Below are positions 14,439-32,029 of a stretch of 33,045 nucleotides of DNA, in pieces. The first letter of the stretch is position 1. Every line of letters starts with the position of its first letter. The notes under the pieces are model-generated. The model was not told the DNA's origin, ran no database searches, and worked only from the letters and a program-made list of their open reading frames with translations. Source of the stretch: a virus; IMG/VR virus record IMGVR_UViG_3300044612_001039, positions 1-33,045 of that record. One strand, written 5' to 3'. A program made the position numbers and the translations under genes.

Positions 14439-15296
14439 ATGGGCCTCACCCTTATGTCCGCCTGGGACCAGTTCGTTGCTGAACGGTCCATTTCCCTGTC
14501 GGCCACAAGCCTCACGTCCGACTACCGCCAAGCCCGAAACTGGCTGAGCCGCTGTCCCCACCAGAATTTTGAGACCGAGGGTCGCCTGATTCTGACCTGG
14601 GTTCTTCAGCAACAGCCGGTTCAGTCGGCAAGGCGGGTGGCCATGTACCTCAAGGCGCTCTACCGCTGGGCTAGCCAAGAGGATATTGCTATCATCGCCC
14701 GAAATCCGATCATGACCTTCCGGATGCCCAAGGCTCCACAGAAGGACGAAGAAATTGTGGTGATTCCCAGGGACGAGATCGGTCTGGTGATGGTTGCCCT
14801 TGAGGCAAAGCAAACCTACCGGTCTACCAACTGGGCCACCTACGCGGAGTTCATGCTCCAGACTGCCATGAGGACCGGCGAGGTCAGGGCCCTTACTTGG
14901 AACGACATTAAGGACGATAAAATCCTGGTCCACAAGAACTTTACCCTGACCCACGGCCTTAAAAACAGCACAAAAACGAATAAGAAGCGTTGGGTACCCC
15001 TCAATGCGAAGTGTAAAGAGATCCTTGACACTTTGGATCAGAACGAAGAGTATCTCTTTCCTTGGGATAGGTCCTCGTTTCAGAGTTACTTTCGCAAAAA
15101 GATGGATCGGCTCCGTGCTGCGGACCTGATTACCCACCTCTATCGCCCCTACGATCTGCGTCATACAGCAATCAGTCGCTGGATCGAGGCAGGCATTCCT
15201 GTTGCTCAGGTTGCATCCTGGGCTGGAAATACGGCAGACGTTATCTGGCGTCACTATGCCAACACCACTCAAACCTACGAAATTCCTGTTCTTTAA
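14439..15296 (+). CDS. int: Tyrosine recombinase (phage integrase)
   Basis: This 285-aa protein is a tyrosine recombinase that would join phage and host DNA at att sites. Residues 7-95 look like a SAM-like core-binding domain. The catalytic domain has Arg145 (AMRTGEVRALTW), Lys near 183-186 (KTNKKRWVPL), Arg241 and His242 (YDLRHTAISRW), and the nucleophile Tyr273 (WRHYANT). The usual His of the HxxR box is Tyr238, and the usual LGH box reads WAGN; related phage integrases can show Tyr here. The start could also be Met6 (14454); neither has a clear Shine-Dalgarno site. It lies between the tail fibre and lysis genes, whereas integrases of marine T7-like cyanophages usually lie near the RNA polymerase. 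Confidence 0.92.
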   Translation: MGLTLMSAWDQFVAERSISLSATSLTSDYRQARNWLSRCPHQNFETEGRLILTWVLQQQPVQSARRVAMYLKALYRWASQEDIAIIARNPIMTFRMPKAPQKDEEIVVIPRDEIGLVMVALEAKQTYRSTNWATYAEFMLQTAMRTGEVRALTWNDIKDDKILVHKNFTLTHGLKNSTKTNKKRWVPLNAKCKEILDTLDQNEEYLFPWDRSSFQSYFRKKMDRLRAADLITHLYRPYDLRHTAISRWIEAGIPVAQVASWAGNTADVIWRHYANTTQTYEIPVL

Positions 15297-22810: not shown

Positions 22811-23455
22811 ATGCCCTCCACAAAGCTTGTCTGGATCACACCAAACGCAGAACAGATCATTACCTACTGTGCCCGTGTATCCAACCCTAAGTCCCAAGAA
22901 GAGAACAAGAGCCCAGAACGGCTGCTTAAGTATCTGATCAAGCATAAGCACTGGAGTCCGTTTGAGATGGCCAGCTGCTGCGTAGAAATAAACACGACCC
23001 GTGATATTAGCGCACAGATCCTGAGGCATCGGAGCTTTTCCTTTCAGGAGTTCAGTCAGCGGTACGCGGAGGTTACACTTAGGCCTGAGATTCCCTGCTT
23101 CCGGCGTCAGGACCTGACCAACCGGCAGAACAGCATCGATGACCTTGACCTGGAAGCAATTGCTGAGGCAGACCAGCTCTGTGCCAACGTGATTAAAGAA
23201 TCAACGCTTGCGTATCAGCGGCTGCTTGAGCTTGGAGTGGCTAAGGAGTGTGCCAGGAAGATCCTTCCCATCAACAGCCCTACCCGGCTCTATATGAGTG
23301 GAACGCTGCGGTCGTGGCTTCACTACCTTCAGGTGCGGCGTGGGCCGGAGACTCAGCTTGAACATAGACAGATTGCAATGGAGGTTGCCAGCCTGCTTTG
23401 TAAAGAAATCCCAAGTATCTTCAACGTTATCCAAGAAACCGATGACCAAGATTGA
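22811..23455 (+). CDS. thyX: Flavin-dependent thymidylate synthase
   Basis: This 214-aa enzyme makes dTMP from dUMP using FAD, NADPH and methylene-tetrahydrofolate, supplying thymidine for phage replication. The ThyX signature (RHRxxSxxExSxRY) is present as RHRSFSFQEFSQRY at about residues 74-87. The C-terminal region LRSWLHYLQVRRGPETQLEHRQIA gives the second conserved Arg and substrate-binding block. Length is typical of the family (about 200-250 aa). The ATG follows a pyrimidine-rich leader without a clear Shine-Dalgarno site. It overlaps the next small gene by 14 bases. ThyX is common in cyanophages and is also used by many marine picocyanobacteria. Confidence 0.95.
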   Translation: MPSTKLVWITPNAEQIITYCARVSNPKSQEENKSPERLLKYLIKHKHWSPFEMASCCVEINTTRDISAQILRHRSFSFQEFSQRYAEVTLRPEIPCFRRQDLTNRQNSIDDLDLEAIAEADQLCANVIKESTLAYQRLLELGVAKECARKILPINSPTRLYMSGTLRSWLHYLQVRRGPETQLEHRQIAMEVASLLCKEIPSIFNVIQETDDQD

Positions 23456-23609: not shown

Positions 23610-23635
23610 GAGAGGTCTAGAAGGCTCTGGAAGAC

Positions 23636-23683
23636 CCCTCTGACTCCCCGCAGGTGTCAATACACCTACGGCTCCTCAGAGGG
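23636..23683 (+). terminator. Nested hairpin after the thyX unit
   Basis: The outer stem CCCTCTGA/TCAGAGGG (8 bp) encloses an inner stem AGGTGT/ACACCT (6 bp) with a CAAT loop. No T run follows, so it may end transcription weakly, stabilise the thyX RNA or be processed. It lies 16 bases before the promoter pair. Confidence 0.55.
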
Positions 23684-23698
23684 CCCTCCAAGGGGCAT

Positions 23699-23717: not shown

Positions 23718-23746
23718 TTGACACAAATTTCTGAAGTCCTTATACG
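23718..23746 (+). promoter_or_regulatory. Strong candidate host sigma70 early promoter
   Basis: A perfect -35 box TTGACA (23718-23723) is followed by a 17-base spacer and TATACG (23741-23746), matching the -10 consensus in 4 of 6 positions. It points toward the early genes that end in the phage RNA polymerase, the expected site for host-driven early transcription in a T7-like phage. Confidence 0.75.
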
Positions 23747-24055: not shown

Positions 24056-24349
24056 ATGAACACCCCAACATTCGCCCGCAACATTGCAGCCGCTGACCCT
24101 TTCATCGATTGGCTGGTGGCTTCTGCTCGCTTTGAAGATCTGCGCTGGCAGGATGATGAGTCCGGCATGTGGTTTCAACGTAAGCCCAGCGATGAGCTTT
24201 TCGATAGCGCTTCTGAGGCACTGGCTGAGGCCTGGGCTGACCTGAATTGGGCTGAACAGAAATACGTGATCGGCTCTGCTGCTGATCAGCTGGCTGAGAT
24301 TGAAACCCTTAGCAAAGAAGCTGAGGCTCTGGTTCGTGATAGGATCTGA
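24056..24349 (+). CDS. Small acidic early protein, unknown
   Basis: This 97-aa protein, rich in Ala, Glu, Asp and Trp, is the first gene after the control region. It looks mostly helical: FARNIAAADPFIDWLVASAR, then DELFDSASEALAEAWADLNW and a last helix with AEIETLSKEAEALVRDRI. There is no metal, membrane or DNA-binding motif. Acidic small proteins at this position in T7-like phages often act on host proteins, but nothing here proves that. Its leader CACAACCAAACCA has no Shine-Dalgarno sequence. A hairpin follows the stop. Confidence 0.65.
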   Translation: MNTPTFARNIAAADPFIDWLVASARFEDLRWQDDESGMWFQRKPSDELFDSASEALAEAWADLNWAEQKYVIGSAADQLAEIETLSKEAEALVRDRI

Positions 24350-24357
24350 ATCAACAC

Positions 24358-24381
24358 GGGCAGTCATCTAAAAAGCTGCCC
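24358..24381 (+). terminator. GGGCAG/CTGCCC hairpin
   Basis: A 6-bp stem (24358-24363 with 24376-24381) has a 12-base A-rich loop and starts 9 bases after the previous stop. There is no T run, and an A/C-rich stretch follows. A weak terminator or RNA-stability element is possible. Confidence 0.4.
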
Positions 24382-24413
24382 ACAACAAACACAAACACAC
24401 AAACCTAGTCACA

Positions 24414-24584
24414 ATGACCGAACCTAAATTATTTGTCTGGGGCGTCCAAGGCTGGGACACAAAACAGGATCGTTATCAGGTCCTAGCTTATGTCAAGGAA
24501 ACGAAAGCCGAAGCTTACGCTACTTGCGCTAAGTTGCATCCAACAATTGACATAATGTCAGTCTATCTTATTTGCGACTACTGA
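24414..24584 (+). CDS. Small early protein (56 aa), unknown
   Basis: This 56-aa reading frame begins MTEPKLFVWGVQGWDTKQDR and ends YLICDY. It reads as a small alpha/beta unit: a strand (KLFVWGVQG), a second strand (RYQVLAYVKE), a helix (KAEAYATCAKLH) and a third strand (IDIMSVYLIC). Proteins of this beta-beta-alpha-beta type are common among tiny phage early genes. It is preceded by an A/C-rich leader with no ribosome-binding consensus. No family is recognised. Confidence 0.6.
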   Translation: MTEPKLFVWGVQGWDTKQDRYQVLAYVKETKAEAYATCAKLHPTIDIMSVYLICDY

Positions 24585-24621
24585 TCACACAATCAACAAC
24601 AACAACCACGCATCCAAACGA

Positions 24622-25257
24622 ATGGCAAACCGGGTCAAGCATCGCGCCAACACGCGCAACATCACGGGCATTCTCAGTCTCGCTACTGAGGCCGACATCT
24701 TCGAAGGCAAGGAGTGGTACGACAGGGCCCACCGCTTCGGCATTAAGCTGATCGCAGCCTATGACATTACAATGGGTCAGGCTATCGGCGTGATCGCAGC
24801 ACTATCACCCAACAACAAATGGGAAAGGAACTGCGCGGATGCCGATAGGTTAATCGAAGCGTATCTTAGTGGCCATGATCTCAGCCTGACTAAGGTTTGC
24901 ACTTATAACAGCAACAAAGACAAGGCTATCAGGATTTTAGAATTGGACACAGAATCATTAGACAATGAGGCTATCGTGTCAATCCTGAATGGTCGTAAAG
25001 TAACGGCATTCTATCGGTCAATCATGGGCGATCCTAACGCGGTCTGTGTTGATGGTCACGCTTATTCAGTGTTCATCGGCCAACGGATACCAACAACAAA
25101 GACACCAGCGATTAGCGCGTCCCTGTATGAAACAATCCAGCGGGCCTATTGCTTAGTGGCTGATCGATCCTATGACATTTGCGGCCACAAACTAACACCG
25201 ACCCAGGTTCAGGCTGTTACTTGGGTTACCTATCGGAGGATGCTTAAAGATGCATGA
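24622..25257 (+). CDS. Conserved phage protein with possible HhH-GPD-like features
   Basis: This 211-aa protein has a recognisable conserved pattern: EWYDRAHRFGIKLIAAYDIT, GVIAALSPNNKWERNCADAD, a YNSNKDKAIRIL block, NGRKVTAFYRSIMGDP, AVCVDGHAYSVFIGQRIPTT, and QVQAVTWVTYRR. I have seen this set in uncharacterised proteins of many phages and some bacteria. The KA-IL, KVTAFY and VDGHA blocks resemble the helix-hairpin-helix and catalytic Asp region (VDTHV) of EndoIII/OGG-type DNA glycosylases, so a DNA-base enzyme is possible; this is an inference. The leader is a CAACAACAACAACC-type sequence. It overlaps the next small gene. Confidence 0.75.
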   Translation: MANRVKHRANTRNITGILSLATEADIFEGKEWYDRAHRFGIKLIAAYDITMGQAIGVIAALSPNNKWERNCADADRLIEAYLSGHDLSLTKVCTYNSNKDKAIRILELDTESLDNEAIVSILNGRKVTAFYRSIMGDPNAVCVDGHAYSVFIGQRIPTTKTPAISASLYETIQRAYCLVADRSYDICGHKLTPTQVQAVTWVTYRRMLKDA

Positions 25258-25369
25258 TCTAGACTACGCTGCTGATCAATTGTTCTATTATCTCTTTGAG
25301 GTTCCCGACAATGAGACAGACAACACTGAGCCCAATGATGAACCGCTCTGGCTGCCATGGGAGAATTGA
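25250..25369 (+). CDS. Very small acidic protein (39 aa)
   Basis: This 39-aa protein, MHDLDYAADQLFYYLFEVPD then an Asn/Glu/Asp-rich part and LWLPWEN, is strongly acidic. It has one of the better ribosome-binding sites in the early region (GGAGG at 25235-25239, 10 bases before the ATG). It overlaps the end of the preceding gene by 8 bases, and the following gene begins inside it. Size and charge recall DNA-mimic inhibitors, but there is no motif to support a specific target. Confidence 0.55.
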   Translation: MHDLDYAADQLFYYLFEVPDNETDNTEPNDEPLWLPWEN

Positions 25370-25847
25370 TGCTGAGACCTTAGCTATTGAATGGATGAGC
25401 GCACCTAACACCGTGCCTACACTGGCAGAGCGTAAGACCTTCAGGTTGTGGTTACTTGATCAATTCTCGCGGATGCGGGCTGAGCGAATCGAACCCTTAT
25501 TTGTGACGCGAGAGGTTAGCATTGATGAGGCAATGATGGCGCTTAATAGAGTTGTCTTGCCTGGTGAGGTTAGGTGGCTTCCAATTAGTCGTCTCAATAA
25601 TGAGCCTAACCCTGACCTTATGTCAACACAACAGAACCTTATGTTCAGAGCGGTTCATGATTGGATCCACCATAAGATAGGGGCGGATGCCACCTTTGAG
25701 GGTGAATTATCAGTAACCCTTGCTCACATCGAATCAGCACCGCCTGAGATACACTGGCTGTTGTGGTCAGAGGTAGCATGTCAGGCAGCAGTTACAATCA
25801 GCACCGGTAGTTTCCCAGCACAGAAATTAGCTAAGCTTACTATGTGA
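25338..25847 (+). CDS. Unknown early protein with a His-Asp/His-His motif
   Basis: This is about 169 aa from the ATG at 25338; an ATG at 25335 and earlier starts are also open, so the start is uncertain. The body has ETLAIEWMSAPNTVPTLAER, then DQFSRMRAERIEPLFV. The most conserved-looking block is NLMFRAVHDWIHHKIGADAT followed by FEGELSVTLAHIESAPPEI and LWSEVACQAAV. The spacing HDxxHH-x(n)-E-x(n)-H suggests a metal site. I recall an uncharacterised phage family with FRAVHDxxxH, FxxxGE and TExxxQ in this order. An intrinsic terminator follows the stop. Confidence 0.7.
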   Translation: MNRSGCHGRIDAETLAIEWMSAPNTVPTLAERKTFRLWLLDQFSRMRAERIEPLFVTREVSIDEAMMALNRVVLPGEVRWLPISRLNNEPNPDLMSTQQNLMFRAVHDWIHHKIGADATFEGELSVTLAHIESAPPEIHWLLWSEVACQAAVTISTGSFPAQKLAKLTM

Positions 25848-25881
25848 TGACGGTTCCTGATAATTATCACCGGCAACATAG

Positions 25882-25914
25882 ACCGGGGTTCCTTAATCGG
25901 GCCCCGGTTTTTTT
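25882..25914 (+). terminator. Strong intrinsic terminator
   Basis: ACCGGGG (25882-25888) pairs with CCCCGGT (25902-25908) around a 13-base loop, followed by seven T up to 25914. It closes the 24056-25847 gene block and is the strongest terminator in the early region. Confidence 0.9.
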
Positions 25915-31070: not shown

Positions 31071-31649
31071 ATGTCCGAAGGACGTTTCATCATCACCACC
31101 ACGCTGGAAGGCTACATCAACGCCCTCAAGCCCTCGGGTAAGTTTAACAACTGCTCGATCAGCTTTCGCATTCCTCAGGACCAGCTCGGAACGTTTGACG
31201 CAGCCTATGACAAGGCCATTGCCGTGGCCAAGAACAAGATGTCAGGCAAGCGTCACACCGAAGAGCTTCCTAAGTGGGACGACGAGGGTCTTGTCAAATA
31301 CTCCTATGGTGGAGATGCTTCTGCCCCTATGTTCCCGTGGGTGGATACTGATGGCGTGCCGATTGATCTTGACACTCAGATCTGGAAAGGCACAGTTGTC
31401 AAACTGATCATTGATCTTCGTCCTTATGTTTATGCCACTAAGGTTGGCTGTTCCCTCAAGGTACGAGGGGCTCAAATTCTCAAGCTGGTTAGCTCTGGAG
31501 GTTCTGACAGCGGCGGGCTGGATGAAACTGAAGTGGCAGCTCTCTTTGGCAAAGCGGATGGATTCAAGGCTGATAGCCCTTCTTTTGAACCCACCGAAGA
31601 CCCAGGCCCAGGTCCTGCTAACTACGAAGACGACGATCTTCCGTTCTGA
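31071..31649 (+). CDS. Single-stranded DNA-binding protein (T7 gp2.5-like)
   Basis: This is 192 aa from the ATG at 31071, which follows a C/A-rich leader; an in-frame ATG at 31023 would overlap the previous gene and add a His/Pro-rich tail. The OB-fold region includes SEGRFIITTTLEGYINALKP, YSYGGDASAPMFPWVDTDG and LRPYVYATKVGCSLKVRGAQ. The C-terminus is acidic and ends DDDLPF, as in gp2.5 proteins, whose acidic tail with terminal Phe binds the polymerase and helicase. It coats ssDNA and organises the replisome. The position before endonuclease I and primase-helicase is exactly that of T7. Confidence 0.92.
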   Translation: MSEGRFIITTTLEGYINALKPSGKFNNCSISFRIPQDQLGTFDAAYDKAIAVAKNKMSGKRHTEELPKWDDEGLVKYSYGGDASAPMFPWVDTDGVPIDLDTQIWKGTVVKLIIDLRPYVYATKVGCSLKVRGAQILKLVSSGGSDSGGLDETEVAALFGKADGFKADSPSFEPTEDPGPGPANYEDDDLPF

Positions 31650-32029
31650 TGCCAAAGTACCGGAGCCGACTTGAAGAGAAGCTGGCCCGGTGGTTCGAAC
31701 TCAATGGGCAACCGTTTGAGTATGAGACACTGCGTCTTAACTACACCGTTTCAGCTGTATACACACCAGACTTTATCTTGCCCAACGGGGTCATCCTGGA
31801 AGCCAAAGGCTACTTCAAGCCTGAGGATCGAAGGAAGATGCTTGCCGTCAAAAAGCAGCACCCAGAGCGAGACATACGTCTGGTGTTTCAAGCACCTTAC
31901 AATACGCTCACGAAGGACAGCAAGACCACCTACGCTATGTGGGCGGAGAAGCATGGCTTTCTGTGGGCACCCTCTCATGACATTCCCCTCGAATGGTTCG
32001 ACAGCATGACTCCGAATCAGAGTTCGTGA
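31649..32029 (+). CDS. Endonuclease I, Holliday-junction resolvase (T7 gp3-like)
   Basis: This 126-aa nuclease (T7: 149 aa) keeps the catalytic set of T7 endonuclease I. RSRLEEKLARWFE gives Glu9, equal to T7 Glu20; YTPDFILPNGVILEAKG gives Asp41, Glu51 and Lys53, equal to T7 Asp55, Glu65 and Lys67. The later blocks HPERDIRLVFQAPYNTLTKD and EKHGFLWAPSHDIPLEWF also match. It resolves branched DNA and degrades host DNA. It lacks the basic C-terminal tail of the T7 enzyme. It starts in a TGATG overlap with the SSB stop and overlaps the primase-helicase by 37 bases. Confidence 0.96.
   Translation: MPKYRSRLEEKLARWFELNGQPFEYETLRLNYTVSAVYTPDFILPNGVILEAKGYFKPEDRRKMLAVKKQHPERDIRLVFQAPYNTLTKDSKTTYAMWAEKHGFLWAPSHDIPLEWFDSMTPNQSS

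Follow-up and report, generated by a model that had tools for sequence, protein, structure and literature searches.

The window, a linear virus record of 33,045 nt, is a 33-kb fragment of a T7-like phage, encoding a single-subunit RNA polymerase, a T7-type terminase, a gp14-like internal protein and endonuclease I. Its early region lies between ThyX (22811–23455) and the RNA polymerase gene (28356) and contains three overlapping plus-strand genes. The first (24622–25257) encodes a 211-aa protein of Pfam family DUF7178 with the blocks KVTAFY (residues 126–131) and VDGHA (143–147). It overlaps by 8 nt an ORF for a 39-aa acidic peptide (25250–25369, GGAGG upstream), which in turn overlaps by 59 nt, counted from the ATG, the gene for a 178-aa protein with the motif HDWIHH (25311–25847; alternative start TTG at 25296), here called the HD protein. 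The first-pass annotation had described this series of genes correctly. Elsewhere in this T7-like phage fragment, a tyrosine integrase (14439–15296) adjoins the tail-fibre gene.

The annotation had also drawn the cassette as a block running from the control region, with its start at 24056, to a strong terminator, and only the right-hand part of that outline held up. On the right, the intrinsic terminator at 25880–25914 (plus strand) is real: its folding energy is -18.2 kcal/mol, while the most stable of 60 shuffled sequences reaches -6.8, and among the 15 relatives with at least 100 nt of sequence after the HD stop codon, 13 have a similar hairpin and T-run 29–67 nt past that stop, with compensatory changes in the stem, and a 14th has a different hairpin 9 nt after it. 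On the left, position 24056 belongs to a variable 97-aa ORF (24056–24349, plus strand) that few relatives have, and near relatives replace this ORF and the 56-aa ORF that follows (24414–24584, plus strand) with unrelated ones; we therefore rejected both as members and limit the conserved unit to the three overlapping genes at 24622–25847. Sigma-70-like sites at the left edge were no more frequent than chance predicts (4 found against 4.9 expected), which lends no support to a promoter there, and the cassette is "terminator-bounded" on its right side only: what lies at the left edge of the control region, 3' of the ThyX operon, is a conserved plus-strand hairpin at 23629–23688 (CCCTCTGA..AGGTGTcaatACACCT..TCAGAGGG) without a T-run, kept by compensatory changes in nine distinct sequences with folding energies of -24 to -30 kcal/mol. 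Within the otherwise fast-changing control region, TTGACACAAATTTCTGA (23719–23735) is kept among relatives and is possibly a promoter -35 element or a regulatory site. AC-rich leaders (ACAACA..ACACACA..ATG) without a clear Shine-Dalgarno sequence, at 24376–24413 and 24584–24621, precede early ORFs, and occur too in relatives whose early ORFs differ. The accessory ORFs at 24056–24584 are exchanged wholesale even between phages whose DUF7178 proteins are >90% identical.

Both flanking genes of the unit are under strong purifying selection, with dN/dS against the five closest relatives of 0.05–0.08 for DUF7178 and 0.09–0.13 for HD. The same comparison gave 0.23–0.76 for the acidic peptide, whose ORF overlaps another gene. 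The peptide (consensus xDLDYxADQLFYYLWEVP...PLWLPWED) is conserved in the closest clade only, and we rejected it as a general partner of the other two. At one related locus (L087, 5222–6522) DUF7178 is ~60% and HD 85% identical to the window's proteins; alleles are therefore exchanged, here apparently by a recombination that replaced one member without breaking up the pair.

To place the 211-aa protein we combined profile searches with structure prediction. It is a full member of DUF7178 (PF23802; E = 5.8e-46, 157.3 bits against a gathering cut-off of 27) and of phrog_3842 (E = 1.1e-55). The family is found in 155 phage records, several of which carry the GenBank name "glycosylase" or "N-glycosylase/DNA lyase". 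A scan of genome contigs returned a single DUF7178 locus, on a MAG contig, and of 398 genomes from the phylum concerned this same genome was the one that carried it; the family therefore looks phage-restricted, and a chromosomal origin was rejected. An AlphaFold2 model built with 72 relatives (pLDDT 92, pTM 0.87) had the six-helix-bundle fold of the HhH-GPD glycosylases, the resemblance that had been proposed from the motifs. Its best Foldseek match was MjaOgg (3knt, probability 0.99), and VIA aligned it over 177 residues with SsOgg (3fhg, Z 12.3, 3.8 Å) and over 176 with 3knt (Z 12.1, 3.5 Å); among the VIA matches listed, all 50 were HhH-GPD glycosylases or homologues.

The predicted active site fits this fold. 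K126, D144, Q197 and W201 do not vary among the 72 relatives or among 14 very divergent members, and neither do S62, N70 and F130; this holds even for the fused forms and for those of mycobacteriophages, Rhodococcus phages, I3 and E3. H146 is not universal. K126 lies 18 residues before D144, which follows a Gly/Pro-containing loop (GDPNAVCVD144). These two residues mirror the catalytic pair K249/D268 of hOGG1 (PMC9638937), where the spacing is 19, and Q197/W201 likewise correspond to the base-pocket residues Q315/F319 of hOGG1 and D194/W198 of MjaOGG2, with the same +4 spacing (PMC3397491). The canonical LPGxG hairpin is absent: DUF7178 has only LNG, two residues shorter, and the model retains the helices around it (115–122 and 125–134). 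AGOG departs from the canonical hairpin too (PMC3397491). By sequence, a Pfam scan of the protein gave no PF00730 match, a PDB sequence-profile search with the family returned noise only, and the hhalign score against HhH-GPD (18.4) fell within the shuffle range, with the GRK and VDxH motifs paired up. Given the shortened hairpin and these non-significant comparisons, DUF7178 is best described as a remote HhH-GPD branch, assigned by predicted fold and active site rather than by sequence. Base processing by DUF7178 is well supported on structural grounds.

The partner was harder to place. A Pfam scan of the window's HD protein gave no match; it belongs with phrog_3170 (E = 2.1e-6). H116, D117, H120 and E132 are invariant in 31 relatives, and R113 and G131 are among the other invariant residues. 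The resulting spacing, H-D-x2-H-x11-E, falls within the COQ4 metal motif HDxxH-(x)10-13-E and is identical to that of Nostoc Alr8543 (H120/D121/H124/E136; PMC9774615), so the check for a metal motif came out positive. The COQ4 sequences compared show the longer pattern R-x2-HD-x2-H-x11-E, with Gly before Glu in five of six. When the HD profile, built partly from loci collected via DUF7178, was compared with COQ4 by hhalign, it scored 33.6 over 34 columns (P = 1.6e-4 for this single comparison, probability 50%), whereas the highest score among 40 COQ4 profiles with shuffled columns was 16.2, and the zincin families M78 and SprT reached 14.6 and 10.6. The Pfam COQ4 model (PF05019) itself reached a best E of 0.016 in 4 of 31 members, below the cut-off, and did not match the window protein; a PDB sequence-profile search with the HD family gave noise only. 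The AlphaFold2 model (pLDDT 90.6) has a two-stranded sheet and a helix-loop-helix around the motif, and its fold matches were weak, the recurring ones being zincins (3e11, selecase, abylysin, IrrE and SprT; Z 2.5–3.7). No COQ4 structure was among the matches listed, which weighs neither way. Because the fold search gives only these weak zincin matches, we consider homology to COQ4 likely but confined to the motif region. The viral structural relatives of HD include small early proteins from three T7-like phages (LKA1, Percy, AS12), whose sequences fit the HD profile as well and retain HDxxH, and domains within large polyvalent or head-morphogenesis proteins. I3 and P59 have the variant HDxxxH-x11-E, as read from their sequences.

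Joint transmission of the two families had been proposed, and we find it well beyond the closest clade. In the first-round HD loci DUF7178 lay directly upstream in all 17. In a wider scan, which together with two earlier loci comprised 78 viral HD loci, DUF7178 was either fused to HD or adjacent, at no more than 0.5 kb and in the same orientation, in 45: DUF7178 came first in 25, HD came first in 18, and the two were fused in 2. This count is biased upward because the HD profile came partly from loci collected via DUF7178; the change of gene order and the fusions are free of that bias. The fused frames (L158, 4105–10071; L159, 3937–9843) encode ~1,980 aa each, HD then DUF7178. The pair also occurs as overlapping genes in mycobacteriophage I3 (gp110, DUF7178; gp111, HD), as adjacent genes in Gordonia phage Skog (gp165/gp166) and as one 858-aa protein, HD then DUF7178, in Rhodococcus phage E3 (gp205). 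Since DUF7178 is found in only 0.3% of phage records, such linkage is not due to chance. Neither is the pairing obligatory, as each protein also occurs without the other (SIO1, S-CBP2 and many mycobacteriophages; LKA1 and AS12). Altogether, joint occurrence and occasional fusion in very different phages suggest an undescribed two-part enzyme module.

Where these genes lie points to when they may act. Of the 37 phages listed, 32 have DUF7178 no further than 12% of the genome from an end, where 8.9 would be expected; some of these records are circular with an arbitrary start. In many Pseudomonas T7-like phages the HD gene is found at 0.6–2.3 kb, among the first early genes, at the position of the anti-restriction gene in T7. 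In large phages HD often carries an N-terminal leader of the MKLLLENWRKFLNE type, seen in 54 ORFs from 18 of 30 large-phage loci (L140–L169) and in none of 3475 ORFs from T7-like loci; it resembles a capsid-targeting and prohead-protease signal of the kind that would mark ejected proteins. A second candidate packaging signal is the leader IVTAREQ or IVSARDQ common to gp110/gp111 of I3 (L110, 1384–4726), where it reads IVTAREQ, and gp165/gp166 of Skog (L106, 1206–4345). E3 gp205 is annotated as structural. Being either first-transcribed or, probably, virion-carried, the pair would therefore act at genome entry in both cases.

These results lead us to a tentative reading, to which we give somewhat less than an even chance, of the pair as an early two-enzyme module, an OGG-like glycosylase with a COQ4-motif metal protein, directed against host defence or host DNA. 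DUF7178 would be a phage-specific HhH-GPD branch, with its greatest likeness to the 8-oxoguanine glycosylase/AP lyases OGG2 and OGG1. Its target is probably a guanine-like purine, flipped out of DNA into the pocket lined by W201 and Q197, where K126, aided by D144, would attack C1' and so remove the base, possibly nicking the strand. The HD protein, small and with its putative metal site, probably works on the substrate of DUF7178 or on its product. In T7-like phages the pair would be transcribed among the first genes; in some large phages, where fused or leader-bearing forms occur, it is probably carried in the virion. Its likeliest purpose is to counter host defence, or else to damage host DNA or bring it under phage control; a part in anti-defence or takeover as the genome enters is what we would best infer. 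A PADLOC scan gave no family match at E 0.1 and an NCBIfam scan gave no match. A wider version is conceivable but somewhat doubtful: a phage-wide entry module that arrives together with the DNA, or is the first to be made, and whose target, a nucleic acid or nucleotide signal used in host defence, would be edited or destroyed.

Other readings were weighed against the same evidence. If DUF7178 served repair, it would remove oxidised guanine from incoming or replicating phage DNA, with HD tidying the ends; the closest folds are all 8-oxoG glycosylases with a matching Q/D-x3-aromatic pocket, and photosynthetic cyanobacteria are among the hosts. However, DUF7178 is common in phages of soil actinobacteria too, its gene is early and usually near a genome end rather than with the replication genes, and HhH-GPD glycosylases are already encoded in 21 of 21 host genomes, which together make repair unlikely. 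Early expression, the predicted bifunctional glycosylase/lyase residues and the occurrence in probable virion-delivered proteins would fit an attack specifically on host DNA, where the pair makes abasic sites and nicks that lead to host shutdown or supply nucleotides. We think this quite unlikely, as nothing indicates how phage DNA would be distinguished from host DNA, and the endonuclease I homologue of the window (31649–32029) could serve host-DNA breakdown.

It is just as improbable that HD is a zincin-like metallopeptidase, with HDxxH for HExxH, which cuts host or phage proteins and has no joint function with its glycosylase-like neighbour. The recurring zincin matches speak for this, as does the presence of HD within large polyvalent proteins, which often contain peptidase domains (PMC5512222). 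Yet all of those matches have Z < 4, the M78 and SprT profile comparisons are at noise level while the COQ4 score is twice that of any shuffle, and HDxxH, in which the D is invariant, lacks the catalytic Glu of the zincins.

HhH-GPD-related enzymes serve thymidine hypermodification, and DUF7178 could by analogy, like aGPT-PPlase, act on bases that are modified in the DNA of the phage itself; ThyX lies 1.2 kb upstream of the pair in the window and is near gp9 in SIO1. Gene clusters for such hypermodification are named in PMC11955845. This role for DUF7178 is very unlikely: among the annotated neighbourhoods and the scanned proteins of the window, a 33-kb fragment, no hydroxymethylase, 5-hmdU kinase, aGPT-PPlase or other modification gene was recognised near the pair, and the excision residues K and D are fully retained. 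We also dropped the ThyX neighbourhood as evidence for base modification, since, SIO1 excepted, the linkage is plain shared synteny inside one cyanophage clade.

One or both proteins occur in hundreds of phages that infect cyanobacteria, roseobacters, pseudomonads or actinobacteria, at the gene positions of takeover and anti-defence functions. Assigning one as a base-excision enzyme and the other as a metal enzyme of COQ4 type, with natural fusion, would make of two "hypothetical proteins" a biochemical pair open to testing, and the HD protein would be an added viral relative of COQ4, whose chemistry long lacked clarity. The suggestion that the system had not been described applies to part of it. 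The components come from known superfamilies and DUF7178 is already catalogued, both in Pfam and under the GenBank "glycosylase" names; our literature search found no mention of DUF7178 or of a phage COQ4-like protein, and no description of the pairing, the fusion, the OGG-type active-site assignment or the partner's COQ4-type motif.

Compared with known systems, DUF7178 shares with OGG2/OGG1 (SsOgg, MjaOgg, hOGG1) an all-helical fold that spans the entire protein (Z 12), the Lys and Asp used in catalysis, a Gly/Pro-containing loop before the Asp, and a Q-x3-aromatic base pocket on the last helix. It differs from them in its ~10–14% identity, the lack of a significant profile match, LNG-RK in place of LPGVG-RK, its restriction to phages and its HD partner. 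The window protein's own family, DUF7178/phrog_3842, which includes gp9 of Roseobacter phage SIO1 and proteins that SEA-PHAGES calls "glycosylase", had been annotated without a mechanism or a partner. With COQ4 (PF05019; Alr8543, 6E12) the HD protein has in common the R-x2-HD-x2-H-x11-E motif, the Gly before Glu and the helix-loop-helix, whereas the remaining sequence is unrelated, the model has a two-stranded sheet, and no link to quinone synthesis is seen. The same two domains as in the window pair make up phrog_3170, phrog_7806 and phrog_2878 (Bixzunavirus I3 gp110/gp111; LKA1 ORF7), adjacent in I3 and fused in E3, but the forms there are larger, have N-terminal leaders and are probably virion-carried. 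The aGPT-PPlases of thymidine hypermodification are phage enzymes that reportedly descend from glycosylases of the HhH type; unlike those systems, the window pair has no recognised hypermodification gene set beside it. Finally, HD occurs, twice together with DUF7178, within multidomain proteins of ~1,800–1,990 aa that are comparable to the polyvalent proteins of Iyer et al. 2017 (PMC5512222), a paper which mentions neither a glycosylase nor COQ4; unlike these giants, the genes of the window are separate, small and early.
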